From positions 470,894 through 534,893 of the forward strand of contig NZ_FOGP01000001.1 in assembly GCF_900111255.1 (NCBI RefSeq): a stretch of DNA of 64,000 nt, in the 5' to 3' direction. The position numbers and the translations under genes are program-made. This document shows positions 3,942 to 22,475 of this stretch, one piece after another. Numbering within the stretch: position 1 is the first letter of the stretch; the number at the start of each line of letters is the position of its first letter. The stretch comes from Parafannyhessea umbonata. Lineage in GTDB: Bacteria; Actinomycetota; Coriobacteriia; Coriobacteriales; Atopobiaceae. Below the pieces are notes generated by a model, which was not told the origin of the DNA, ran no database searches, and saw nothing but the letters and a program-made list of their open reading frames with translations.

Positions 3942-4411
3942 TCGGCCTCCTTCTTCTCCTTTTCGTATTCGCACCAACTCTCGCGCATGCGGTCGAGCAT
4001 GTCGACGAGCCGCACCTTCTCGTCCTGCGACAGGGCCGAGAGGCACTGCTCCTCGAACTTGAGCTGCTCCTCGACGAGCTGCGTCGCCCGAAGCACGCCG
4101 CGCGAGGTGAGGGCAATGTCCATCTGGCGCTTGTCCTGGTCCGAGCGAGTCTTGGTCACAAGGCCCTCTCCCTCGAGCTTGGTCAGCACCTCCGAGAGCG
4201 CCGCCGAGGTCACGTGCGAGCGCTCGAGGAGCTCGCGCTGGGTCAGATGGCCGTCGTGGCAGAGCAGCTTTGCCAGTATGTGCTGCTTGCCACTGCGCCC
4301 ACCGGCGTGCACGTGAATGAAGTGTCCGAAGAAGCCTAAGTCGTGCAGGACACGATGCTCGGGGCTCTTCTCCACCTCCTTAAAGTGCGCGTCTAATTCT
4401 TCCTTGGTCAC
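3929..4411 (-). CDS. MarR-family transcriptional regulator
   Basis: This 160-residue winged-helix protein has a central MarR domain: an LTQRELLERSHVT recognition region and the wing residues TKTRSDQDKRQMDIALTSRG. The GTG start is supported by GGAGGAAGG upstream. It is the first gene of an operon with the two ABC exporter halves. Its promoter region holds three near-identical palindromes, so the simplest reading is an autorepressor that also represses the exporter and releases DNA on binding a ligand. The last 25 residues are rich in lysine and glutamate and overlap the next gene. The ligand is unknown. Confidence 0.92.
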   Translation of the reverse strand: MTKEELDAHFKEVEKSPEHRVLHDLGFFGHFIHVHAGGRSGKQHILAKLLCHDGHLTQRELLERSHVTSAALSEVLTKLEGEGLVTKTRSDQDKRQMDIALTSRGVLRATQLVEEQLKFEEQCLSALSQDEKVRLVDMLDRMRESWCEYEKEKKEAECKN

Positions 4412-4443
4412 GTTGGTCCTTCCTCCGATACATACGATTGAGA

Positions 4444-4472
4444 ATATTAGGCACCTAACGATTTAGTTGCAA
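4444..4472 (-). promoter_or_regulatory. Promoter of the marR-ABC operon
   Basis: Read on the minus strand there is a TTGCAA -35 (4467-4472), exactly 17 bases of spacer and a TAATAT -10 (4444-4449). It lies 33 bases or more upstream of the marR start. One operator palindrome lies across the spacer and the edge of the -10. Confidence 0.7.
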
Positions 4473-4502
4473 GGTACCTAACAAAATTCATAGGTACCTA
4501 AC
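4447..4502. promoter_or_regulatory. Three MarR operator palindromes
   Basis: TTAGGCACCTAA (4447-4458) is a near-perfect palindrome. Two further copies of AGGTACCTAAC begin at 4472 and 4492. The centres are 23 and 20 bases apart, about two helical turns, which would place bound dimers on one face of the DNA. One copy overlaps the -10/spacer and one abuts the -35, as expected for an autorepressor. Confidence 0.7.
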
Positions 4503-4583
4503 AATTTGGGACGGCGGCGGACGAATGTCGGCGTGGACGAGAGGGGCGCACTTGTGTGCGCGTGACGGAGCCGCACTTGGCGG

Positions 4584-4592
4584 TGCTATGCT
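4584..4592 (+). promoter_or_regulatory. Extended -10 promoter for the gtrA-like gene
   Basis: TGCTATGCT is an extended -10 element (TG, one base, TATGCT). It lies 27 bases before the small leader frame at 4619. No good -35 is visible; GTGACG at 4562 is 19 bases away. Confidence 0.45.
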
Positions 4593-4618
4593 GTCTTGCG
4601 TCAAGTAACGGAGGACTT

Positions 4619-4699
4619 GTGCTCGAGACGCTCTCTTACATAGGCGGCAATCGCGGCCCCAGGCCCACGACGCGCATCCTCGTGCAGGGGCGTGCGTAG
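4619..4699 (+). CDS. Possible 26-codon leader peptide upstream of gtrA-like gene
   Basis: A GTG codon with a well-placed GGAGG (4610-4614) opens a 26-codon frame that stops one base before the ATG of the GtrA-like gene, in a different frame. The only clear ribosome site in this leader serves this small frame, not the membrane protein, which suggests translational coupling. The peptide has no recognisable family, and chance cannot be excluded at this length. Confidence 0.35.
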   Translation: MLETLSYIGGNRGPRPTTRILVQGRA

Positions 4700-4700
4700 C

Positions 4701-5366
4701 ATGGCCATCGGCCTAAAGGACAAGCTGAGGCCCCGCTTCCTGCGCTTTGCGGCCTCGTCGCTCATCAGCACGGCCGTCGACCAGGGGCTCGCCTTCGTGC
4801 TCTTCCACTGTCTTGACGGCGCGCTCTTTGGTGCCGATTACCTGAGGATTTTCATCGCGACGCTCGTGGCGCGCGCCTGCTCGGTCACCGTCAACTACGT
4901 CATAAACCAAAAGCGCGTGTTCGCCGAGGGTGCCGGAAGGTCCTCGGTCGTCCCTGCGGCCGCGCTGTCGGTCGAGGATGCCGACGAGGCGGCCGGCATC
5001 GACTTCGATGACATCATCGAGGGTCCCGACGACGCCGTCAGGAACCGCGCGGTCGAGGTTCGTCCCATGCGCGAGAGCCTCCCGCGCTTCCTGCTGCTTG
5101 CGGTGGCCATGCTTTTGCTCTCGAGCGTGGGCGTCTTCGCGGCGCACGTGGCGCTTGGCGTCAACGAGAGCGTGGCCAAGCTCGCCGTCGACTTCCTTCT
5201 GTTCTTCGTTAACTACTACGCGCAGCGCGCCTGGGTGTTTGCCCGTCGCGAGCGCAGGGGCGACAGGCGCCTTGCCCGCCTGCGCATGCGCGTCAGCAAG
5301 GCCCGCACCCGCAGGAGGGTTCGCAAGGGGAGGGGTGCCCGCGCTCGCCTGCGCGGGCGGCGCTAG
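4701..5366 (+). CDS. GtrA-like membrane protein
   Basis: This 221-residue protein has four hydrophobic segments in the GtrA pattern: an FLRFAASSLISTAVDQGLAF-like first helix, NYVINQKRVF closing the second, and NYYAQRAWVF closing the fourth. GtrA proteins are small membrane proteins linked to moving lipid-linked sugars in cell-envelope glycosylation. Between helices 2 and 3 is an acidic loop of about 45 residues (DEAAGIDFDDIIEG region), longer than is usual. The C-terminus is a strongly basic Arg-rich tail of about 35 residues. ATG 4701 is chosen over an in-frame GTG at 4692 because it follows the leader-frame stop. The gene ends flush against the stop of the convergent hydrolase gene. Confidence 0.8.
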   Translation: MAIGLKDKLRPRFLRFAASSLISTAVDQGLAFVLFHCLDGALFGADYLRIFIATLVARACSVTVNYVINQKRVFAEGAGRSSVVPAAALSVEDADEAAGIDFDDIIEGPDDAVRNRAVEVRPMRESLPRFLLLAVAMLLLSSVGVFAAHVALGVNESVAKLAVDFLLFFVNYYAQRAWVFARRERRGDRRLARLRMRVSKARTRRRVRKGRGARARLRGRR

Positions 5367-6236
5367 CTAGTCGTTCGCGCGCCCGATCAGCGCGAGGGCC
5401 TCGTCTGCCACGAGGTCGGGGCACTCCTTGGGCAGCACGTGCCCGCAGCCGGGCACGATCACGAGGCGCGACCCCGAGACCATCGCGTGGATGAGGTCGG
5501 TCTGGGTGCGGTCGATGTCATCGTTCTCGCCGGCCATCACACAGGTGGGGCAGCAGATTCCCTGGAGGCTCTCGGCCTCGATGTGCGGCTCGTTCGCTAT
5601 CAGGCGCAGCAGCTCGGCCGTGCGTCGGGCTTCGGAGGGCGTCGGCGTCAGCAGCTCGCGCTCGACGGGAAGCGCAGAGCCCTCGCCCTTCTCCCACCAG
5701 TCGGCCCAAGACTCGAGCTCGCCCGAGATGCGCTCCACCTCGAAGTCGCCCGAGACGCCCTCGGGCGTGACGTTCGCGCCGATGGAGAGGAGCGACGCCA
5801 CCGCCTCGGGCTGGTCGCGCGCCATCAGCAGGCCCTCGATCGCCCCGTCCGAGAAGCCGATCACGTGCGCCCGCTCGACGCCGAGCTCGCGAAGTGCCCC
5901 CAGGGCGTCGTCGCGCATCAGCTCGTAGCTGAGGGGGGCCGTGCCGCGCGTGGATTTGCCCTGCGCGCGGGAATCGAGCGCGATGGCGGCCCGGCCCGAC
6001 GCGCAGATGCGGTCTATCACCACGCCGAAGATGCCGTGCTCTTCTCCGTTGCCGTGAAGCAGGAGCACGGGCGCTACGCCCTCGGTCCGCGTCTGTGCAA
6101 GGGAAGACCCCCGTGGCGCGTAGACGTACGTCGCGATCTTCGCGCCATCGGGGGTCTCGTGCGTGAGGGCGCGCTCGAGCCTTGCCTCGGGAAGGCGATA
6201 CGGGCTGGGGAAGTGGAGCTGCGGGCGCGTGGCCAT
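5367..6236 (-). CDS. Alpha/beta hydrolase
   Basis: This 289-residue alpha/beta-hydrolase fold protein has the oxyanion region LLLHGNGEEHG, nucleophile elbow GFSDGA (serine in the G-x-S-x-G position), an acid in AGENDDIDR and a histidine in GCGHVLPKE. The catalytic triad is therefore complete. The substrate is not predictable; relatives include esterases, lipases and peptidases. No signal peptide is seen, so it is probably cytosolic. The start has AGGGAGAG upstream. It lies 23 bases downstream of metG on the same strand and is probably cotranscribed with it. Confidence 0.85.
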   Translation of the reverse strand: MATRPQLHFPSPYRLPEARLERALTHETPDGAKIATYVYAPRGSSLAQTRTEGVAPVLLLHGNGEEHGIFGVVIDRICASGRAAIALDSRAQGKSTRGTAPLSYELMRDDALGALRELGVERAHVIGFSDGAIEGLLMARDQPEAVASLLSIGANVTPEGVSGDFEVERISGELESWADWWEKGEGSALPVERELLTPTPSEARRTAELLRLIANEPHIEAESLQGICCPTCVMAGENDDIDRTQTDLIHAMVSGSRLVIVPGCGHVLPKECPDLVADEALALIGRAND

Positions 6237-6259
6237 GTGTCTCTCCCTACGTTTTGTCG

Positions 6260-8314
6260 CTACTTGCCCTTCTTCATCTGGCTGTGGTGCTTCTGGAAGA
6301 AGTCGAAGCGCGGCGGCAGCTCCACCATCTGGTGGGACTCGGGCGTGTCGCCCGCGGCCGCGGCGAGCTCGGCCATCGTGTCGAAGGCGTGGTCCCAGCT
6401 GAAGAAGAGGCCCTCGTCGAAGGCCAGGTAGCGGCAGACGAGCTCGCAGCCCGCGGGAACGGCGGGATGCATCAGCAGCGTGACGGTGCGCAGCGCCTGG
6501 AAGGCGTCGGCCAGGGCCTGCTCGTAGGCGGCGTCGTCGCCCTGTGCGGCCTTGGAGGCGTCGCTCCAGCGCTTGTTGGCGTCGCGTGCGAAGGCGTCGA
6601 CGGCGGCCAGCGCATTGTGCGCGTCGAAGGCGTGGGCGCAGCGCTCGAAGGCAAGCGTGACCTCGTCGCAGGCAGCCTTGACGTCGTCGTGGGCCGTGAC
6701 CGTGGGCAGGTGGCCTTCGCAGACGTTCTGGGCGCCATAGAAGCAGCTGCGCGCCAGGCGGTTGAAGATGTTGGTGAGGAAGGCGCTCTCCTTGAGGGCG
6801 GGGTCGACCACGCGCGGGTCGTCCTTCACCAGGATCTCGACGCCCGTCTTCTTGTCGACGTGGCTCACGGACGTGTCATAGGGCTTGGGCGAGAAGGACA
6901 CGGCCTTCTGGTCGAGGCCCAGGCTCAGCCAGTGGGCACGGAGCTGCTCGGCGGTGTAGTGCTCGAGGAGCTCGCCGGCCATGGGCGGCTTGATCGAGCC
7001 GGAGCTGGAGGCCTTCTTGTTCATGAACAGGATGTGGTAGTTGGCGACGGGGGTGTCCTGCGTGAGGCCCCAGTCGAGCGCGGCCCACATCGCGGGCTGC
7101 GCGATGCAGTAGAAGTAGATGTTGTCCTGACCGATGAACTGGTATACCTTGGCGTCCTTGGAGCACCACCAGTCGCGCCAGTCGTCGGTGGAGTAGCGAC
7201 CGGCGCCGGACTGCTTGTCGGCGTCGAGAACGGTCTGCGTGAAGCTGATGGGCGCCCAGAGGCTCTCGGGCCAGCACCAGACGGTCAACCCGCTGACGTC
7301 CTCCATGTCGGGGGCGGGAACGCCCCACTCGATGTTGCCGGTGATGCGGAAGGGCAAGAGCGTCTTGCCGGTGCGGAAGCGCACGCCGGCGGACTCGAGG
7401 ACGCCGCGTGCCTCGTCGCGGTCCTTCCAGTTGGCGAACTCCACCGAGAACGACTGTTGGCCCTTCTCGGCCTCGCGAAGCGTGTGGGCGGGGAGCTTGC
7501 CCGCGACGGCGTCGAAGGCCTCGCGGAACTTGTTCTGGACGTACATCACGGGGGCGACCAGCGTTTCGCGCACGGTCTTGGTGACGATCGGGCGCACCTG
7601 CTCGTCGACGTCCCACTCGTCCATGAGGGACTTGAGCTCGCCTTCGAAGGCGGGCAGGTCGAAGTACCAGTTGTCGACGGGGCGCAGCTCGGGCGTGGTG
7701 CCGGTCAGCTGCGAGACGGGCGCGATGAGCTCCTCGGGGTCGAACTGGTGGCCCAGATCGCACTCGTCGGCGTAGGCCTTCTCGCTCTTGCAGCCCTTGA
7801 CGGGGCAGCGACCCTTGACCTGGCGGCCGTTGAGGAACTGGCCGGCCTCGACGTCGTAGAACTGTCGAGTCGACATCTTGTGCAGGAAGCCCTTCTGGTG
7901 CAGGCGCTCGATCAGCTCTGAGGTCAGCTTCTTGTGGAAGTCGGAGGCGGGCTCGAGGCCGGATCCGGCGAAGAGGTCGAGGCTGATGCCATAGGCGTCA
8001 AGTGCGGACTTCTGGGCATCGTGGTTCTGCCTCACGTAGTCGACGATGCTGCCCTCGTAGCCCTCGCCCTCGACTTTCTTGCGGTAGCCCTCCATGATGG
8101 GGGAGCCGTAGCAGTCGGTGCCCGAGACGAAGACGACGTTGCCCCTGCCCAGGCGGTCGCGCAGGAAGCGCGCGAAGAAGTCGGCGGGCACGAAGACGCC
8201 GCCGATGTGTCCGAAGTGGAGGTTCTTGTTGCCGTAGGGCATGCCGCCGGTGATGACGGCGCGCTTGGGGAAGTCCGGACGCGTCGCGCCGGAGAGCGTG
8301 GTGGTGTCTGCCAT
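6260..8314 (-). CDS. metG: Methionyl-tRNA synthetase
   Basis: This 684-residue class I synthetase charges tRNA-Met. The HIGH motif is HFGHIGG (residues 33-39). A zinc-knuckle region follows, with cysteines at about 170, 175 and 185. The protein lacks a C-terminal Trbp111-like tRNA-binding domain, and its length comes from an enlarged connective region (about 215-340). The usual KMSKS loop reads KKASSSG (433-439), so the second lysine is replaced by serine. The start at 8314 precedes the first conserved residues; the longer open frame upstream is GC-driven. Its ribosome site is weak (GAGTGAG). I know of no reason to doubt function, but the loop is atypical. Confidence 0.92.
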   Translation of the reverse strand: MADTTTLSGATRPDFPKRAVITGGMPYGNKNLHFGHIGGVFVPADFFARFLRDRLGRGNVVFVSGTDCYGSPIMEGYRKKVEGEGYEGSIVDYVRQNHDAQKSALDAYGISLDLFAGSGLEPASDFHKKLTSELIERLHQKGFLHKMSTRQFYDVEAGQFLNGRQVKGRCPVKGCKSEKAYADECDLGHQFDPEELIAPVSQLTGTTPELRPVDNWYFDLPAFEGELKSLMDEWDVDEQVRPIVTKTVRETLVAPVMYVQNKFREAFDAVAGKLPAHTLREAEKGQQSFSVEFANWKDRDEARGVLESAGVRFRTGKTLLPFRITGNIEWGVPAPDMEDVSGLTVWCWPESLWAPISFTQTVLDADKQSGAGRYSTDDWRDWWCSKDAKVYQFIGQDNIYFYCIAQPAMWAALDWGLTQDTPVANYHILFMNKKASSSGSIKPPMAGELLEHYTAEQLRAHWLSLGLDQKAVSFSPKPYDTSVSHVDKKTGVEILVKDDPRVVDPALKESAFLTNIFNRLARSCFYGAQNVCEGHLPTVTAHDDVKAACDEVTLAFERCAHAFDAHNALAAVDAFARDANKRWSDASKAAQGDDAAYEQALADAFQALRTVTLLMHPAVPAGCELVCRYLAFDEGLFFSWDHAFDTMAELAAAAGDTPESHQMVELPPRFDFFQKHHSQMKKGK

Positions 8315-9540: not shown

Positions 9541-10430
9541 CGACGGCCGAGGTCGCCTCCATCTCGAAGCCCGAGACGAGCGACCCTGACGGCTGGTACG
9601 CACCTGCCTGCGACACGCACCGCTCGCCGTTTGCGGGCCGCAACTTCGAGTACTTCTCGGAGGACCCCGTCCTGGGCGGCAAGATCTGCTCCGCCGAGGT
9701 CTCCGGCGCCGCCTCGAACGGCGTCTATGCCTACGTCAAGCACTTCGCGCTTAACGACCAGGAATCCTATCGCGTTCAGCACCTCATGACCTGGGCTGAC
9801 GAGCAGGTCATGCGCGAGTGCTACCTCCGTCCCTTCGAGATCTGCGCCAAGGAGGCGTCCTACGAGGAGAAGTACATCGCCGACTCCAAGGGAACCGTCG
9901 CCACCCGCACGACGAAGGCGTGTACGGGCATCATGAGCTCGTTCAACTACATCGGCACCGAGTGGACCGGCGGCCGAAAGAGCCTGCTTACCGACGTCCT
10001 GCGCGACGAGTGGGGCTTCGAGGGCATGGTCATCACCGACTTCAACCTCTATGGCTACATGGACAAGATGGCGTCCCTCGCGGCCGGCGGCGATCTGCAG
10101 CTGACCTATTCGGCCATGACCGGCGACATCCAGCGCGCCGGCACCGCGACCGTCGTCTCGCAGCTGCGCCGCTCCATGCACAACGTGCTGTACACGGTCA
10201 CCAACAGCAACGCCATGCAGGGGCTGGTGCCGGGCTCCAAGGTGAAGTACGGAATCGCCCCTTGGCAGTATGGCGTCTACGGCGCGACCGCAGCGCTCGT
10301 CGGCCTTGGCGCGTTCCTGGGCTGGCGCAGCGCCAAGAAGGGGCGTGCGCTCAAGGAGCAGGCCGCCGGCTCCGCCGTGGCCTCCGCGCCGAAGGAGCCT
10401 CGCGACGACGCCGGCGCGCCTGACGAGTAA
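9541..10430 (+). pseudogene. GH3 glycoside hydrolase, 3' fragment with membrane anchor
   Basis: This is the C-terminal part of a family 3 glycosidase. It keeps THRSPFAGRNFEYFSEDP, KHFALNDQE and the nucleophile region GMVITDF, followed by about 100 residues, a hydrophobic helix near GVYGATAALVGLGAFLGW and a charged tail. The barrel is the last domain before the anchor, which matches GH3 enzymes of inverted domain order in which the sandwich domain comes first. The 5' part (sandwich domain and first half of the barrel) is missing. Its break coincides with the break of the kinase fragment on the other strand. No genuine start codon exists, since the open frame simply runs on into the antisense of the kinase. 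Confidence 0.82.
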
Positions 10431-10464: not shown

Positions 10465-10505
10465 GAGTATCTTTGTGGTAACAAGCGATTGAAGGGACGG
10501 TTTTG

Positions 10506-13067
10506 GTGTCAACCATCGATGAGCGGGTCGAAGAGGTCCTGGGGAAGATGACGCTCGAGCAGAAGTGCGCACTTCTCTCGGGAAAGACCCCCTTCGGCAC
10601 GCGTGACTTTCCTGACCTTGGCGTACCCGCCATGGAATTCTCGGACGGCCCACACGGCCTTCGCCACCAGAAGGACGGCGCCAACCACCTTGGAATTGGC
10701 GGAAGCGATCCCGCGACCTGCTTCCCCACCGCGGTCACGGTGGCGAGCAGCTGGGACGTCGAGCTGGCCGGCCGCATGGGAGCGGCCCTGGGCGAGGAGG
10801 CCCGCTCCCTGGGGGTGGGCGTCCTGCTGGGTCCCGGCATGTGCATCAAGAGGAGCCCCCTCTGCGGCAGGGACTTCGAGTACTTCTCCGAAGACCCGTA
10901 CCTCTCGGGCAAGATGGCCGCGGGCTTCGTGCGCGGCGTGCAGGAGAAGGGCATCGCCGCCTGCCCCAAGCACTTCGCGGCGAACAGCCAGGAGACGAGG
11001 CGCCAGGCGTCCGACTCCGTCCTCGACGAGCGCACGCTGCGCGAGATCTACCTGCGCGGCTTCGAGATCGCCGTGCGCGAGGGCCGGCCGAAGTCGATCA
11101 TGAGCAGCTACAACCTGATCAACGGTACGTACGCGAGCCAGAACCGCCGCCTTTTGCAGGACGTCCTGCGCGGCGAGTGGGGCTTCGAGGGCGCGACCGT
11201 GACCGACTGGGGCGGCTCCGTCGACCATGTCTCCGGCGTGAAGGCCGGCACCACCTTCGAGATGCCGGCCCCGGGCCTGGACTCGCCGCGTGAGCTCGCC
11301 GAGGCCGTGCGCTCCGGCCGCCTGGACGAGCACTTCGTCGACGCCCGCGCCCGCGAGGCGCTCCACCTTGTCCTGGAGAGCGCCGCGGCCCTCGAGGGGG
11401 CTGACCCCGAGTTTGACCGGGACGCCCACCACGATCTTGCCCGCTGCGTCGCGCGCGAGGGCGTCGTCCTGCTCAAGAACGAGGCTCCGGCAGGGGAGGG
11501 CGATGCGCTCCTGCCGCTGAGGCCGGGCACGCGCGTCGCCCTGGTCGGCGACTTCGCCCAGACGCCGCGCTATCAGGGCGCCGGGTCCTCTTTGGTGGAA
11601 TGCACGCGTCTGGACACGCTGCTGGACGTCGTCGGCGAGCGTGGGGAGCTCGACCTTCTGGGGTTCGAGCCCGGCTTCACCCATGACGGCTCCGATGACG
11701 CGGCCTGCCGTGCGGCGGCCGTGAGCCTCGCGTCGGGCGCCGACGTGTGCGTGGTGTGCCTCGGTCTGGCCGGTGGACAGGAGACCGAGGGTGCGGAGCG
11801 TCGCGACATGCTCCTGCCCCAGGCCCAGGTGGAGCTCCTGCGCGCCGTCCGCTCCTGCTGCGACAGGGTCGTCGTCCTTCTGAGCTGCGGCTGCGTGGTC
11901 GACACCTCCTGGTCCGGTGACTGCGATGCCCTCCTGTACCTGGGGCTTGGCGGTCAGGCGGGCGCCTCGGCCGCCTATGACGTGCTGACGGGCTCTGCCA
12001 ACCCCTGCGGCCACCTTGCCGAGACCTGGCCGCTTTCCCTCGAGGACACGCCGACGGCGGGACGCTATCCCTCCGACGGCGCCACGGCTGAGTACCGCGA
12101 GGGCATCTACGTCGGCTATCGTTACTACCAGAGCGCTCACGTGCCCGTCGCCTTCCCGTTCGGCTTCGGGCTCTCGTACACGAGCTTCGAGCTGTCCTCC
12201 GCCCGAATCGCGCAGTGGGAGCAGGGCCGCCCCGCGCGCATCGAGGTCAACGTCAGGAACACGGGCGACCGTGCGGGAGCGACCGTCGTCCAGGCCTACG
12301 TCGCCAAGCCCGAGCACGAGGTGTTCCGCGCGGAGCAGGAGCTCAAGGGCTTCTCGCGCGTCGAGCTCGAGAAGGGCGAGTCGACCACGGTCGCCATCGA
12401 CCTCGACCCGCGCGCGTTCGAGTACTACAACGTCGGGACCTGCTCCTGGGAGGTCGAGGGCGGACGCTACGAGCTGCGCCTGGGCCTGTCGTGCGAGGAC
12501 GTCCGACAGACGCTGGGCGCGGAGCTCAAGGGGACGGGCGCCCCCAACCCCTACGCCGGCCGCGAGCTCCCGTCGTATGGCTCCGGCTACGTCCACGAGG
12601 TTACCTGCGCCGAGTTCGCCACGCTGCTGGGCCACGCCGCCCCCAACGCGATCGCGCCCCTGGGAAGGAGCACCTGCCTGCGCGACCTCAACCGCTGTCG
12701 CAGCCTCATCCTGCTGTTGGTCTGGCTGGTTCTGGAGGGGCGGCACCGCCAGGGACTGAAGCCCGGAAACTCTCCCGACCTCGACGTCGAGTTTGCCTAC
12801 AACATGCCCCTGCACGCCATCGCCAAGATGGCGCCGCCCGTCACCATGGGCGTCGTCGACGCCATCGTTCGCGAGGCGAGGGGCTATGGCCTGGTCGGCT
12901 TCGTGCCGGCGCTGGCGATCGCGCTTCTCGCCCACGGGGGCTTCGGTGCCTTCGCGGTGGTCTGGCTCGCCTGGGTGCTCGTGCCGCTCCTCGGCGCGCT
13001 GCTCGTCGGCGCGCTGCGCAACGTCACTTTTGCACGTAAGCTGAACCTGCACGGAAAGGCGGAATAA
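10506..13067 (+). CDS. Membrane-anchored GH3 beta-glucosidase
   Basis: This 853-residue family 3 glycosidase is in canonical domain order. The barrel begins TLEQKCALLSG and carries GRDFEYFSEDP, KHFAANSQE and the nucleophile Asp234 in TVTDWGGS. An alpha/beta sandwich follows, then a fibronectin III-like domain starting near PFGFGLSYTSFEL. After about residue 700 comes an added segment ending in one or two long hydrophobic helices (about 795-840). I see no N-terminal signal peptide, so the catalytic part is probably cytosolic and tethered to the membrane. GTG 10506 lies 9 bases after AAGGG; the preceding TTG is an alternative. It probably forms an operon with the next gene. Activity on beta-glucosides is inferred from the family. 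Confidence 0.9.
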   Translation: MSTIDERVEEVLGKMTLEQKCALLSGKTPFGTRDFPDLGVPAMEFSDGPHGLRHQKDGANHLGIGGSDPATCFPTAVTVASSWDVELAGRMGAALGEEARSLGVGVLLGPGMCIKRSPLCGRDFEYFSEDPYLSGKMAAGFVRGVQEKGIAACPKHFAANSQETRRQASDSVLDERTLREIYLRGFEIAVREGRPKSIMSSYNLINGTYASQNRRLLQDVLRGEWGFEGATVTDWGGSVDHVSGVKAGTTFEMPAPGLDSPRELAEAVRSGRLDEHFVDARAREALHLVLESAAALEGADPEFDRDAHHDLARCVAREGVVLLKNEAPAGEGDALLPLRPGTRVALVGDFAQTPRYQGAGSSLVECTRLDTLLDVVGERGELDLLGFEPGFTHDGSDDAACRAAAVSLASGADVCVVCLGLAGGQETEGAERRDMLLPQAQVELLRAVRSCCDRVVVLLSCGCVVDTSWSGDCDALLYLGLGGQAGASAAYDVLTGSANPCGHLAETWPLSLEDTPTAGRYPSDGATAEYREGIYVGYRYYQSAHVPVAFPFGFGLSYTSFELSSARIAQWEQGRPARIEVNVRNTGDRAGATVVQAYVAKPEHEVFRAEQELKGFSRVELEKGESTTVAIDLDPRAFEYYNVGTCSWEVEGGRYELRLGLSCEDVRQTLGAELKGTGAPNPYAGRELPSYGSGYVHEVTCAEFATLLGHAAPNAIAPLGRSTCLRDLNRCRSLILLLVWLVLEGRHRQGLKPGNSPDLDVEFAYNMPLHAIAKMAPPVTMGVVDAIVREARGYGLVGFVPALAIALLAHGGFGAFAVVWLAWVLVPLLGALLVGALRNVTFARKLNLHGKAE

Positions 13068-13727: not shown

Positions 13728-14689
<962 letters not shown>

Positions 14690-15868: not shown

Positions 15869-17440
<1,572 letters not shown>

Positions 17441-17639: not shown

Positions 17640-19676
17640 ATGGGCCTTCGCGAACTCATAGGGGAGAAGTCTCCCGACAGCATGCTCGTCCGCAGGGACG
17701 CCAGCGCACTCCTGCACGGCGCCGTGCGCGTCGAGTCGGAGCAGGGCGGCTGGTGCCGGCCGTGGCGCCTCTCGGCAGAGCAGATGCGCGCCCTCGGCAG
17801 CTGCCAGGCGTGGCACCCGGGGCTCTTCCGCCAGATGGGCCGCGCCACCTCGGGCATCTGCGTCGAGTTCACCACCGACTCCTCCGAGGTCGCCCTCGAG
17901 GTCAAGCCTGATGCGGAGCCTACGGGCACGCGTGCCGTCCTCGACTACGTCGACGGCAGGGGAGAGGGGCGCGCCCTCCCGCACGACGGGCTGTCCTGCG
18001 ACGTGGACGGCCGTCACCTCGCAGCCCGCCTTCCCCGGGAGGGCGACGGCTACGTGGTCTTCGACCTCGACGATCCTGAAGCTGCCCCGCTCGGCGGCAT
18101 CATGCAGCTTCCCGGCATGGGCGAGACGCACCACGTGCGCATCTGGCTTCCCTGCCTGAGGGGCTGTGCCGTGCGCTCCGTCGTGGGCAACGGGTCGATC
18201 ATCGAACCCGTCGCCCAGAGGGAGCAGCTCCTGGTGCTGGGCGACTCCATCGCGCAGGGCTTCGTCTGCGACGACCCCGCGCTGGGCTGGCCGTCGCTGC
18301 TCGCGCAGAGGCTGGGGCTCGACCTGGTCAACCAGGGCATCGGTGGCCAGGTGTTCCAGCCCGGCTCGCTCTTCGGGCTCGCCCGCTCCATCAGCCCCGT
18401 CCGCATCGTGGTCGAGCTGGGTGCGAACTACCGCTACGAGCCCTGCCGCGAGCGCCTGGTCTCGCGTGACATCCGCAGCTACCTGCTGGAGCTCTCCCGC
18501 CTGTGGCCGGAGGTTCCCACCTACGTGCTCACGCCGCTCTGGCACGACGAGGCCGCCTATCCCTCGCACCGCCTGAGCTGCTACTCGAGCGTCGGCGTGT
18601 TCCTCAGCGCGCACACTGCGCCCCACGACCAGATGACGCTCGTCGACGGCGCGCGCCTGCTCGACCCCAAGTCCACGCTTATGGCCGACGGCTTCGAGCA
18701 CCCGAACCCCGAGGGCTCGGCCCAGATTGCCGAGCGTCTATACCTATGCATGTGCGCGCACCGCGGCAGCGACGAGGGGCGGCGCGCCCGCGCGCTCGAG
18801 ATCCTCGCTGGCGCGCCGCGAAGGGCGTTCCCCGCGCTCGAGCTCGCGCGCCGCGGCAAGGGTGACATCGTGCTGGCCCAGGACGGCTGCGTCCTCATGA
18901 GGGACGCCGGCGGCATGCAGCTGCTCTGGGCCGACGACCAGAAGGTGGGCGCGGCAGTGGTCAAGGCCCTGGTCGAGCCCGGCGTCGTCGACGTCCTCGA
19001 GCCCTCCCTCGTGCGCGAGGTCGAGCTCGCGCACGGGCTCACCAAGGTCGTCCCGTACCACCTTGCCCTCTGGGAGAAGAACGAGGCCGTCGCGCCCTCC
19101 CTGTTCGACCTGGCTCCGACGGCGCCCGCAGCCCCGGGTCCGCGCGCCAAGGCCTCCGGCAAGGCCCGGGTGAAGTTCGCACGGGACGAGGGCGTCCGCC
19201 GCGAGATCCGGCCCCTCGACCGCAGCTTCGCGACGGCCATCCGCGACCGCTACGAGAACTCCTCCTACCTGAGCGACGCCGACCTTTCTCGCATGCTCGA
19301 CGAGGGGCGCTTCCTGGGCGCCTTCGAGCTGCGCAAGGGAGAGGGGGGAGAGGTTGCCGAGCTCGTGGGCTTCGTCGGCGAGCATGACGTCGGCTCCATT
19401 GGCATGCTTACGGTCTTTCCCGACCACCGTCGCCAGGGATGGGGCGAGGCGCTCGAGGTCGCCAAGATCAACCAGGTGCTCGACCGCGGAGACGTGCCCT
19501 GGTGCGAGGTCTATCCCGACCACCGTGCCTCCGTCAGGCTGCAGAAGAAGCTCGGCTTCAAGGTCACTCCCTCCAACGAGCAGTGCTTCCTCTTGGCGTC
19601 CGAGCCCGAGCCGCCGCGCGGGAGCGTGCCGACCTTCCTGATGGGCACCGCCCCGTCCGGGGGCTCCGCCCGCTAG
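17640..19676 (+). CDS. SGNH hydrolase fused to GNAT acetyltransferase
   Basis: This 678-residue fusion has three parts. Residues 1-190 are a beta-rich lead-in domain. Residues 195-375 are an SGNH hydrolase with the nucleophile block VLGDSIAQGF (Ser203), Gly236, the ELGANYRYE block (Asn263) and DGFEH (Asp350, His354). Residues 385-490 resemble the N-terminal half of two-domain GNAT proteins. A Pro/Ala linker leads to residues 515-655, a GNAT domain with the acetyl-CoA loop RRQGWG (597-602). SGNH enzymes remove acyl groups and GNAT enzymes add them, so it could edit acyl groups on one ligand; that is inference. GGAG precedes the ATG. It is a single gene with a terminator behind it. Confidence 0.85.
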   Translation: MGLRELIGEKSPDSMLVRRDASALLHGAVRVESEQGGWCRPWRLSAEQMRALGSCQAWHPGLFRQMGRATSGICVEFTTDSSEVALEVKPDAEPTGTRAVLDYVDGRGEGRALPHDGLSCDVDGRHLAARLPREGDGYVVFDLDDPEAAPLGGIMQLPGMGETHHVRIWLPCLRGCAVRSVVGNGSIIEPVAQREQLLVLGDSIAQGFVCDDPALGWPSLLAQRLGLDLVNQGIGGQVFQPGSLFGLARSISPVRIVVELGANYRYEPCRERLVSRDIRSYLLELSRLWPEVPTYVLTPLWHDEAAYPSHRLSCYSSVGVFLSAHTAPHDQMTLVDGARLLDPKSTLMADGFEHPNPEGSAQIAERLYLCMCAHRGSDEGRRARALEILAGAPRRAFPALELARRGKGDIVLAQDGCVLMRDAGGMQLLWADDQKVGAAVVKALVEPGVVDVLEPSLVREVELAHGLTKVVPYHLALWEKNEAVAPSLFDLAPTAPAAPGPRAKASGKARVKFARDEGVRREIRPLDRSFATAIRDRYENSSYLSDADLSRMLDEGRFLGAFELRKGEGGEVAELVGFVGEHDVGSIGMLTVFPDHRRQGWGEALEVAKINQVLDRGDVPWCEVYPDHRASVRLQKKLGFKVTPSNEQCFLLASEPEPPRGSVPTFLMGTAPSGGSAR

Positions 19677-19730: not shown

Positions 19731-19761
19731 GCCCCGTGCGCATTGTCCGCACGGGGCTTTT
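19731..19761 (+). terminator. Rho-independent terminator
   Basis: GCCCCGTGCG pairs perfectly with CGCACGGGGC across a 7-base loop, followed by TTTT. It closes the SGNH-GNAT gene. Confidence 0.85.
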
Positions 19762-19815
19762 GCGTCCGCGCCATGGTGTAGGCTAGCGATGAAAACACTT
19801 CGAGAAAGGCCTCAC

Positions 19816-21063
19816 ATGTCACAGAGCTTTGCCCCGCGCTCGGCCAATGAGCTCGCGCCCCACCTGACGGGCATGCTCACCCCCGAGTGCGACGAGCGCG
19901 TCCGCGCGCTGCGCAGCGAGGGTCGCATGAGCCCGTATGCCTGCAAGAATTCGGCGGTCATCCGCCGCGACGTCGCCGAGAGGGATCGCGACACCTCGAT
20001 TCGCCCCGCCTTCGTCCGCGACTGCGAGAAGATCCTCCATACCCCCGCCTATAACCGTCTCAACGGAAAGACCCAGGTCTTCTCGTTCAGAGCCAACGAC
20101 GACCTCACACGCAGGGGACTTCACGAGCAGCTCGTCAGCCGCGTGGCGCGCGACATCGGGGCCGCGCTCGGCCTCAACCTCGACCTCATCGACGCCATCG
20201 CCCTGGGCCACGATGTGGGCCACACGCCCTTCGGCCACGCGGGCGAGCGCTTCCTCAACGACGTGTTCCACGAGCGCACCGGGCGCTGGTTCTTCCACAA
20301 CGTCCAGTCCGTCCGCGCGCTCGACGTGCTCTACGGACGCAACATCTCGCTCCAGACACTCGACGGCGTCATCTGCCACAACGGCGAGTTCGAGCAGCAG
20401 CGCTTCGAGACCAGCGGCCTCAACGACTTCGACACCTTCGATCGCGTGGTCGCCGGCTGTTGGGAGTCCGGCGCCGAGGCCATCAGGAGGCTCAGGCCGA
20501 TGACGCTCGAGGGCTGCGTCGTCAGGATCTCCGACATCATCGCCTACGTTGGCAAGGACCGTCAGGACGCCATCCGGGCTCACCTGGTCGACGAGGACGC
20601 CTTCGACGACGGCCTGGGTGGGGCTTACAACGCCTGGGCGCTCTCGGCGTTCTCGGCCGACGTCGTCCAGAACAGCTTCGGCAAGCCGCGCATCGAGATG
20701 AGCGAGGAGGGCTTTGGCGAGCTCGCCCGCGCCAAGCGCGAGAACTACCAGAAGATCTACGGTTCCAGCGAGGTCGACGGTGACTTCTCGGGCCCCGTGC
20801 GCGAGCTCTTCTCGGCGTTGTACCAGAGCTCGCTCGACGACCTCCGGGAGGGTAGGGAGGAGGCCCCGGTCTTCCGTCACCACGTTCTGCCCGTCGAGCG
20901 CCACCTCTCGTACTACGGCCGTTCGTACGAGGTCGAGGACGACCCCGATCAGGTGGTCGTGGACTACATCGCCGCCATGAGCGACGATTACTTCGTCGCC
21001 GCCTGCGAGAGGCTTTTCCCCCAGGCGCGCGAAATCTTCCCGCAGCGCAGCTATTTCGGTTAG
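19816..21063 (+). CDS. dgt: dGTPase-like deoxynucleotide triphosphohydrolase
   Basis: This 415-residue HD-superfamily enzyme hydrolyses dGTP (or other dNTPs) to the nucleoside and triphosphate. The metal site is visible: the histidine in RGLHEQLVSRVA, the HD pair in ALGHDVGHTPFGHAGE, and a later aspartate in RISDIIAYVGKD. The start is placed at ATG 19816 with AAAGG upstream; in-frame upstream codons run into the terminator of the preceding gene. It overlaps the ribosome site of rarA, so the two form a unit. Confidence 0.9.
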   Translation: MSQSFAPRSANELAPHLTGMLTPECDERVRALRSEGRMSPYACKNSAVIRRDVAERDRDTSIRPAFVRDCEKILHTPAYNRLNGKTQVFSFRANDDLTRRGLHEQLVSRVARDIGAALGLNLDLIDAIALGHDVGHTPFGHAGERFLNDVFHERTGRWFFHNVQSVRALDVLYGRNISLQTLDGVICHNGEFEQQRFETSGLNDFDTFDRVVAGCWESGAEAIRRLRPMTLEGCVVRISDIIAYVGKDRQDAIRAHLVDEDAFDDGLGGAYNAWALSAFSADVVQNSFGKPRIEMSEEGFGELARAKRENYQKIYGSSEVDGDFSGPVRELFSALYQSSLDDLREGREEAPVFRHHVLPVERHLSYYGRSYEVEDDPDQVVVDYIAAMSDDYFVAACERLFPQAREIFPQRSYFG

Positions 21064-21071
21064 GAGCATCC

Positions 21072-22475
21072 ATGGACACTCTTTTCTCTGAGGTAGAGCG
21101 CTACAAGCGCAAGCTCAACGCGCCGCTGGCCGTCCGCATGAGGCCTCGCACGCTCGAGGAGTACGTGGGACAGGAGAAGGCCGTGGGGCCCGGCTCGTGG
21201 CTGCGTCGCGCGATAGAGCACGACACGCTGTCGTCGGTCCTTCTCTATGGACCTGCGGGAACGGGTAAGACGACGCTCGCGCGAATCATCGCCAACACCA
21301 CCCACGCCGAGTTCGTCGAGGTTTCCGCCGTCACGGGAACCGTGAAGGACCTGCGGCAGGCCACCGAGGCCGCGGAGTCGCGCCTGCTCACCACGGGCCG
21401 GCGCACCATCCTGTTCGTGGACGAGATCCACCGCTTCAACCGCTCCCAGCAGGACGCACTCCTGCATGCGGTCGAGGACCGCGTGGTCATCCTCGTGGGC
21501 GCCACGACCGAGAACCCGTACTTCGAGGTCAACCAGGCGCTCATCTCGCGCTCGCGCGTCGTCGAGCTGGGGCCTCTCGACGACGAGTCCATCCGCACGC
21601 TCGTGCGCCGCGCGCTGGGCGACGAGTTTGGCCTCGCCGGGCGCTTCGTGCTCGAGGACGACGCGCTCGAGGCCATCGTCACGCTCTCGGGCGGCGACGG
21701 CCGTGCCGCGCTCACCTCGCTCGAGCTCGCGAGCCAGATGGCCCTTCCCGTCGAGGGGGATTCCGACGCGACTGATGGTTCCGGGGAGGGAGAGGACGAG
21801 GCGAGTGCGCCCCTCACCATTACGGCCGAGCACGTCCTCGAGGCGAACCCGCGCCACGGGCTGGCCTACGACAAGTCGGGTGACATGCACTACGACATCA
21901 TCTCGGCGTTCATCAAGTCCATGCGAGGAAGCGACCCCGACGCCACGCTGTACTGGCTCGCTCGCATGATCGACGCCGGCGAGGACCCAAAGTACATCGC
22001 CCGCCGCATCATGATTCACGCCTCCGAGGACGTGGGCAATGCCGACCCGCAGGCCCTGCTGGTCGCGGAGGCCGCGTTCAAGTCCGCCGAGGTGATTGGC
22101 TACCCGGAGTGCCGCATCAACCTTGCCCAGGCGGCGCTCTACATCGCGCTCGCCCCAAAGTCCCACGCCGCCGAGGCCGGCATCGACTCGGCCCTGGCCG
22201 AGGTCCGGAAGGGACCGCGCCGCGAGGTTCCCAGCTACCTGCGCGACCGCACGCGTCCGGGCTCCGAGGACTACGGCGAGTACCTCTATCCCCACGACTA
22301 CCCCCTGGGCTGGGTCGAGCAGCGCTATCTGCCCGAGGGCCTCGAGCGCGGCGCGTTCTACAAGCCCAGTCCCCGTGGCTGGGAGTCTTGGAGGGTCGAG
22401 TCCACGGCGCGCGACCGTGCGGAGTTCGCCGACGCCGGCGGCGACGCGTCGGGCAAACCAGGCGCGAATGGGTAG
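21072..22475 (+). CDS. rarA: Replication-associated recombination protein RarA (MgsA)
   Basis: This 467-residue AAA+ ATPase of the RarA/MgsA/WRNIP1 family acts at stalled replication forks. Walker A is YGPAGTGKTTLA, Walker B FVDEIHRFN, and sensor 1 GATTENPYFEVN. The C-terminal tetramerisation region includes YDKSGDMHYDIISAFIKSMRGSD. Length is normal. An acidic insert lies at about residues 230-255. AGGAG overlaps the stop codon of dgt, indicating coupling. Confidence 0.95.
   Translation: MDTLFSEVERYKRKLNAPLAVRMRPRTLEEYVGQEKAVGPGSWLRRAIEHDTLSSVLLYGPAGTGKTTLARIIANTTHAEFVEVSAVTGTVKDLRQATEAAESRLLTTGRRTILFVDEIHRFNRSQQDALLHAVEDRVVILVGATTENPYFEVNQALISRSRVVELGPLDDESIRTLVRRALGDEFGLAGRFVLEDDALEAIVTLSGGDGRAALTSLELASQMALPVEGDSDATDGSGEGEDEASAPLTITAEHVLEANPRHGLAYDKSGDMHYDIISAFIKSMRGSDPDATLYWLARMIDAGEDPKYIARRIMIHASEDVGNADPQALLVAEAAFKSAEVIGYPECRINLAQAALYIALAPKSHAAEAGIDSALAEVRKGPRREVPSYLRDRTRPGSEDYGEYLYPHDYPLGWVEQRYLPEGLERGAFYKPSPRGWESWRVESTARDRAEFADAGGDASGKPGANG

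Follow-up and report, generated by a model that had tools for sequence, protein, structure and literature searches.

Enzymes with the SGNH fold are most often hydrolases. In FkbH-type glyceryl transferase/phosphatases a HAD phosphatase core is combined with SGNH-like and GNAT-like regions in a single polypeptide. SsfX3, a GDSL (salicylyl) acyltransferase of a tetracycline antibiotic pathway, is a transferase and not an esterase, and the CE2 carbohydrate esterases act on polysaccharides. In SGNH-AT3 proteins of the OatA type the SGNH domain shares its chain with an acyl-transferring domain, the membrane AT3 domain (PMC9487903). The double-GNAT fold is composed of two GNAT domains, of which typically one is active (PMC12219266, PMC12509317); the catalytic pair in GLYAT is Glu226-His263 (PMC12509317). 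The initial annotation of the locus described here knew of no system in which SGNH and GNAT are joined, and this agrees with the literature searched (on SGNH with GNAT, GDSL with MazG, and SsfX3), which contained nothing relevant and no description of an SGNH-GNAT architecture.

The sequence analyzed is a 64,000 nt stretch of Parafannyhessea umbonata DNA (the window). The open reading frame at positions 17640–19676 (+) is a single uninterrupted gene of 678 codons without an internal stop. The start codon, ATG at position 17640, is preceded by GGAGAA at a distance of about 8 nt, and the stop codon is TAG at positions 19674–19676. The features of the gene and its downstream region are:

17640..19676, plus strand: SGNH-GNAT fusion gene, 678 codons (open frame, Pfam matches, orthologues of the same layout)
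17640..18767, plus strand: SsfX3-like half, residues 1–376, with a beta-sandwich (about 17–190) and the SGNH domain (about 194–376) (predicted model against 3skv, Lipase_GDSL_2, conservation)
18768..19085, plus strand: predicted degenerate first half of the double-GNAT module, residues 377–482 (predicted model against 7pk1 and 1sqh, free-standing counterparts)
19086..19187, plus strand: poorly ordered linker, residues about 483–516 (pLDDT below 50 for 482–512)
19188..19610, plus strand: catalytic GNAT half, residues 517–657, with the acetyl-CoA loop R597-G602 and the conserved E581-H582 (FR47 and Acetyltransf_1, conservation)
19731..19757, plus strand: intrinsic terminator-like hairpin in the gap between the fusion gene and dgt, a 10-pair stem with 9 G-C pairs, then TTTT
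19790..21063, plus strand: dgt-like gene, a conserved neighbor (named by reading the sequence; family synteny)
21072..22475, plus strand: rarA/mgsA-like AAA ATPase gene, a conserved neighbor (named by reading the sequence; synteny)

Three Pfam domain models score above their curated cut-offs: Lipase_GDSL_2 at residues 199–360 (3.7e-12, 47.5 bits, cut-off 32.9), and FR47 (4e-09, 36.8, cut-off 22.1) and Acetyltransf_1 (7.6e-06, 26.6, cut-off 20.7), both within residues 554–643. The SGNH residues that had been described as intact are in place, i.e. G201-D202-S203, G236, G261-A-N263 and D350-G-F-E-H354. The protein belongs to the SGNH/GDSL superfamily by its Pfam match and by the Ser, Gly, Asn and Asp-x-x-x-His of blocks I, II, III and V. 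Over 95 aligned SGNH rows S203 is kept in 94%, G236 in 89%, N263 in 95%, D350 in 93% and H354 in 94%. Ser203 is replaced by Glu, Gly or Ala in six rows (L060, L064, L065, L137, L138 and L140), and three of these (L064, L065, L138) retain a GNAT with an intact loop. Thus hydrolysis is not always required.

The GNAT half is assigned to its superfamily by the Pfam models and by the acetyl-CoA loop R597-R-Q-G-W-G602, which fits R/Q-x-x-G-x-G/A. This loop is intact, as first read, and is also intact in 62 of 67 GNAT rows. E581 is kept in 59 and H582 in 56 of the 67 rows, and the two residues are candidates for the GNAT acid-base role.

An AlphaFold2 model was built on the sequences of the P. umbonata protein and of five relatives (mean pLDDT 77.9, pTM 0.79); the linker at 482–512 (pLDDT below 50), the C-terminal tail and the loop 234–242 are poorly defined in it. 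Residues 7–376 of the model align to SsfX3 (3skv) with Z 30.0 and rmsd 3.2 over 323 aligned residues. SsfX3 is the top structural match across both subdomains, with a beta-sandwich N-terminal domain packed on the SGNH domain, and is also matched by profile at 1.2e-4. The GAV, GWLxPxR, WLPxL and GDSIxxG blocks are common to both proteins, however the identity is 19% and SsfX3 has no GNAT half. The same residues match the uncharacterised 4lhs (Z 25.7) and the CE2 esterases 2wao, 2wab, 3u37 and 4xvh (Z about 18–22, with 2wab and 2wao at 22). These share the two-domain fold with SGNH, but at 12–17% identity and without a GNAT. Unlike the CE2 enzymes with their polysaccharide substrates, the fusion protein looks cytosolic, as direct reading of its N-terminal sequence reveals no obvious signal peptide or membrane segment.

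Residues 368–656 align to bovine glycine N-acyltransferase (GLYAT, 7pk1) with Z 21.0 and rmsd 3.1 over 250 aligned residues, and to 1sqh with Z 20.9; 1sqh is also matched by profile at 1.7e-5, and the fold matches include mycothiol synthase. This part of the model displays the double-GNAT fold. The likeness to GLYAT and 1sqh is at the fold level (12–13% identity), and the fusion protein differs from them in having an SGNH half attached. The initial annotation had placed a possible pseudo-GNAT half at residues 385–490. The structure prediction bears this out: in the model, residues 377–482 form the first, degenerate domain of a single double-GNAT module. Free-standing versions of the module occur in Subdoligranulum (229 aa) and in a relative that belongs to a different family within the order (253 aa). 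No AT3 model is found in the Pfam scan of the fusion protein, whose partner domain is a soluble GNAT in contrast to the membrane AT3 domain of OatA-type proteins, and unlike the FkbH-type proteins it shows no HAD match in that scan. The fusion protein is an unusual architecture of known parts.

Atopobiaceae is a family of gut and mouth bacteria. A match to the fusion protein is present in 135 of 140 Atopobiaceae genomes, where some matches are to a MazG-fused paralogue only, as in G001, which belongs to the same genus as the window. Named genomes with a match include Olsenella phocaeensis and Parafannyhessea umbonata, the latter in Atopobiaceae. The protein is thus kept in some form by nearly every genome of the family, and no described function was found for it. 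Outside this family, the genomes searched from the order have at most the GNAT part, and rarely. With a profile of the SGNH half, relatives are detected in other parts of the phylum; the few frames read there end with the SGNH domain. Therefore, among the genomes searched, the SGNH-GNAT fusion is seen only in Atopobiaceae. Phage and plasmid collections gave no full-length match.

SGNH and GNAT are fused in 64 of 95 surveyed Atopobiaceae SGNH loci, across many genera and mostly beside dgt. A frameshift or sequencing artefact joining two genes, which had been considered at the outset, is ruled out by this recurrence of the same layout. By class, 34 loci have the fusion, 30 have the fusion with an adjoining ATP-grasp-like gene, 13 have SGNH and a separate ATP-grasp, 13 have SGNH alone, three have SGNH, GNAT and ATP-grasp all separate, and two have SGNH fused to ATP-grasp; these counts are approximate, as the survey includes a few repeat fetches of one genome and the SGNH-only rows include a few draft-bin loci with stops or diverged tails (L117, L134, L135). 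SGNH is found without a detectable GNAT in several genera (G010, G012, G016, G020, G029, G036), so that the SGNH role does not depend on the GNAT. The SGNH-only proteins of genus g9 (L098, L103, L108, L112, L116, L120) have a basic tail, around PSSVGKRRK, and end in a short LPLD/LPFE-like motif.

Separate neighboring genes, regarded in the initial annotation as a possible argument against a functional link, do occur in three loci. SGNH and GNAT are 13 bp apart in L049 and are neighbors in L059. In L106/L165, SGNH (6311–7690), ATP-grasp (4834–6309) and GNAT (4075–4833) lie head to tail with no real gap, a tight three-gene row that argues for a functional link and not against one. In a quick tree built from the SGNH half, at least 12 changes between the fused and unfused states are needed, a figure that may be inflated by weakly supported branches and misread draft genes. 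The recurrent, reversible fusions point to a small set of partners: double-GNAT, ATP-grasp and MazG.

Over much of the family the gene order is SGNH(-GNAT), dgt, rarA and further housekeeping genes to alaS, with names assigned by reading. The dgt-like gene of P. umbonata probably starts at or after position 19790, downstream of the hairpin. Terminator-like sites in the region number two, versus 0.9 expected in shuffles. A gap of 200 bases separates the fusion gene from the upstream GH1 gene. Given the hairpin at 19731–19757, the fusion gene is probably transcribed alone in P. umbonata. An operon with dgt is not supported there, as the terminator-like hairpin separates the two genes.

The sugar substrate suggested in the initial annotation finds nothing specific in its favor. 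A glycoside-linked function was considered from the upstream GH1, RpiR and GH3 genes and rejected; these genes are outside the conserved neighborhood, and among relatives GH1 is upstream of the SGNH gene in L040 only. The upstream region also has gene remnants. Positions 13734–14626 (−) are a decayed second GH1 copy whose pieces, in three frames, are 48–64% identical to the intact GH1 at 15908–17440. A GH3 N-terminal domain fragment in a shortened frame is at 9603–10103 (+) and is 39% identical to the intact GH3 at 10503–13067.

The explanation tentatively preferred, with a likelihood somewhat short of even, is a cytosolic two-enzyme protein typical of Atopobiaceae, in which the serine site takes off (or transfers) an O-acyl group while the GNAT half N-acylates an amine, perhaps as two steps on related metabolites. 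In the SsfX3-type half Ser203, with Asp350-His354 and an oxyanion hole of Gly236 and Asn263, would form an acyl-enzyme and thereby free a small metabolite of an O-linked acyl group. The double-GNAT half, its first domain degenerate and its second active, would acylate an amine using acetyl-CoA. The fusion would most likely hold two steps on related small metabolites together, with the GNAT as a separable accessory and the SGNH as the better kept part. Activity of both halves in P. umbonata, hydrolysis rather than transfer by the SGNH half, acetyl as the acyl group and a shared metabolite are inferences.

The persistence of the fusion, and the continued proximity of the separated genes in L049 and L106, make a single substrate plausible. 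Shared action of the halves is not obligatory, as SGNH-only genera exist. The acyl exchange or editing first proposed is supported only in part: both domains are complete, but the SGNH half persists without a GNAT and the six rows noted above have no Ser nucleophile. If both halves share one compound, the protein would be a soluble single-chain O-/N-acyl enzyme, distinct from the membrane AT3-SGNH route.

It is also possible, but rather unlikely, that the protein is made of two acyl transferases, the SGNH half O-acylating from acyl-CoA or another donor as SsfX3 does and the GNAT N-acylating, at two sites of one molecule. The rank of SsfX3 as top structural match and its profile match are consistent with this, and the distant relatives read in the phylum are unfused proteins of the same kind. 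However, CE2 esterases at Z up to about 22 and 4lhs are matched too, so that the fold does not tell hydrolase from transferase, and the P. umbonata genome has no biosynthetic cluster around the gene.

Domain shuffling or co-expression without coupled chemistry, where an SGNH domain readily joins a neighboring gene and the parts stay independent, is judged unlikely, and a little more so than two transferases. Besides GNAT, the same SGNH family is fused to ATP-grasp in two genera (L054, L055), each with a free GNAT far off in the same genome, and, as a paralogue, to MazG, a house-cleaning enzyme. The SGNH half of this paralogue (P0003) is 29–34% identical (MazG 1.1e-31, Lipase_GDSL_2 2.9e-18). 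Several Atopobiaceae carry it (L066:7285–9444, L067–L074), close to genes resembling mfd, divIC and ppx, and the MazG-fused paralogues are one clade on the quick SGNH-half tree. It is absent from the P. umbonata genome, whose MazG frame, about 298 aa long, has no SGNH part. The ATP-grasp also adjoins dgt in genomes without SGNH from another family of the order (L150, L152, L153), thus its adjacency to SGNH is partly an inherited position. The occurrence of SGNH alone in some genera fits independent parts too. Against this, most genera retain the SGNH-GNAT fusion, and where the genes are separate they are still adjacent in L049 and L106.

A wider proposal is quite improbable, namely that these proteins form an Atopobiaceae-specific cytosolic acyl-editing module, with SGNH tied to the double-GNAT, to a gamma-glutamyl-cysteine-linked ATP-grasp ligase and, via the paralogue, to MazG, in an undescribed proofreading or small-molecule pathway that would swap O-acyl for N-acyl.

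The ATP-grasp-like protein (P0002) is a weak assignment, as its Pfam GSP_synth match (0.002) is below the cut-off. A profile search of PDB gave no significant match, and a model from two sequences (pLDDT 39.8) was set aside. Among 149 Coriobacteriia genomes ATP-grasp and the GCS2 glutamate-cysteine ligase are both present in 35, singly present in 10 and 2, and both absent in 102 (Fisher p 1e-22, from counts that ignore shared ancestry). In L164 (4759–7381) the ATP-grasp directly follows GCS2. From this pattern the ATP-grasp-like protein is a candidate, non-orthologous enzyme for the second step of a Coriobacteriia thiol pathway akin to that of glutathione.

Least probable of all, and by a reading that draws on this co-occurrence, on SGNH fused to or beside ATP-grasp in many genera and on the mycothiol synthase fold match, is a gamma-glutamyl-cysteine thiol metabolism in which the ATP-grasp would extend gamma-Glu-Cys, the double-GNAT would N-acetylate like mycothiol synthase and the SGNH would be a (thio)esterase; in all six genomes tested from the large genus g4 the ATP-grasp occurs without GCS2, and neither gene is found in the P. 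umbonata genome, so that the link cannot explain the fusion protein there.

Divergent ATP-grasp-like proteins are encoded at L043:9540–10916 and L164:4759–7381. In genus g9 the ATP-grasp-like protein at L035:7404–8774, on the contig of L039 and beside an SGNH-only gene, has GITTGG where a relative has ELNTDG, and on this substitution it may be inactive.
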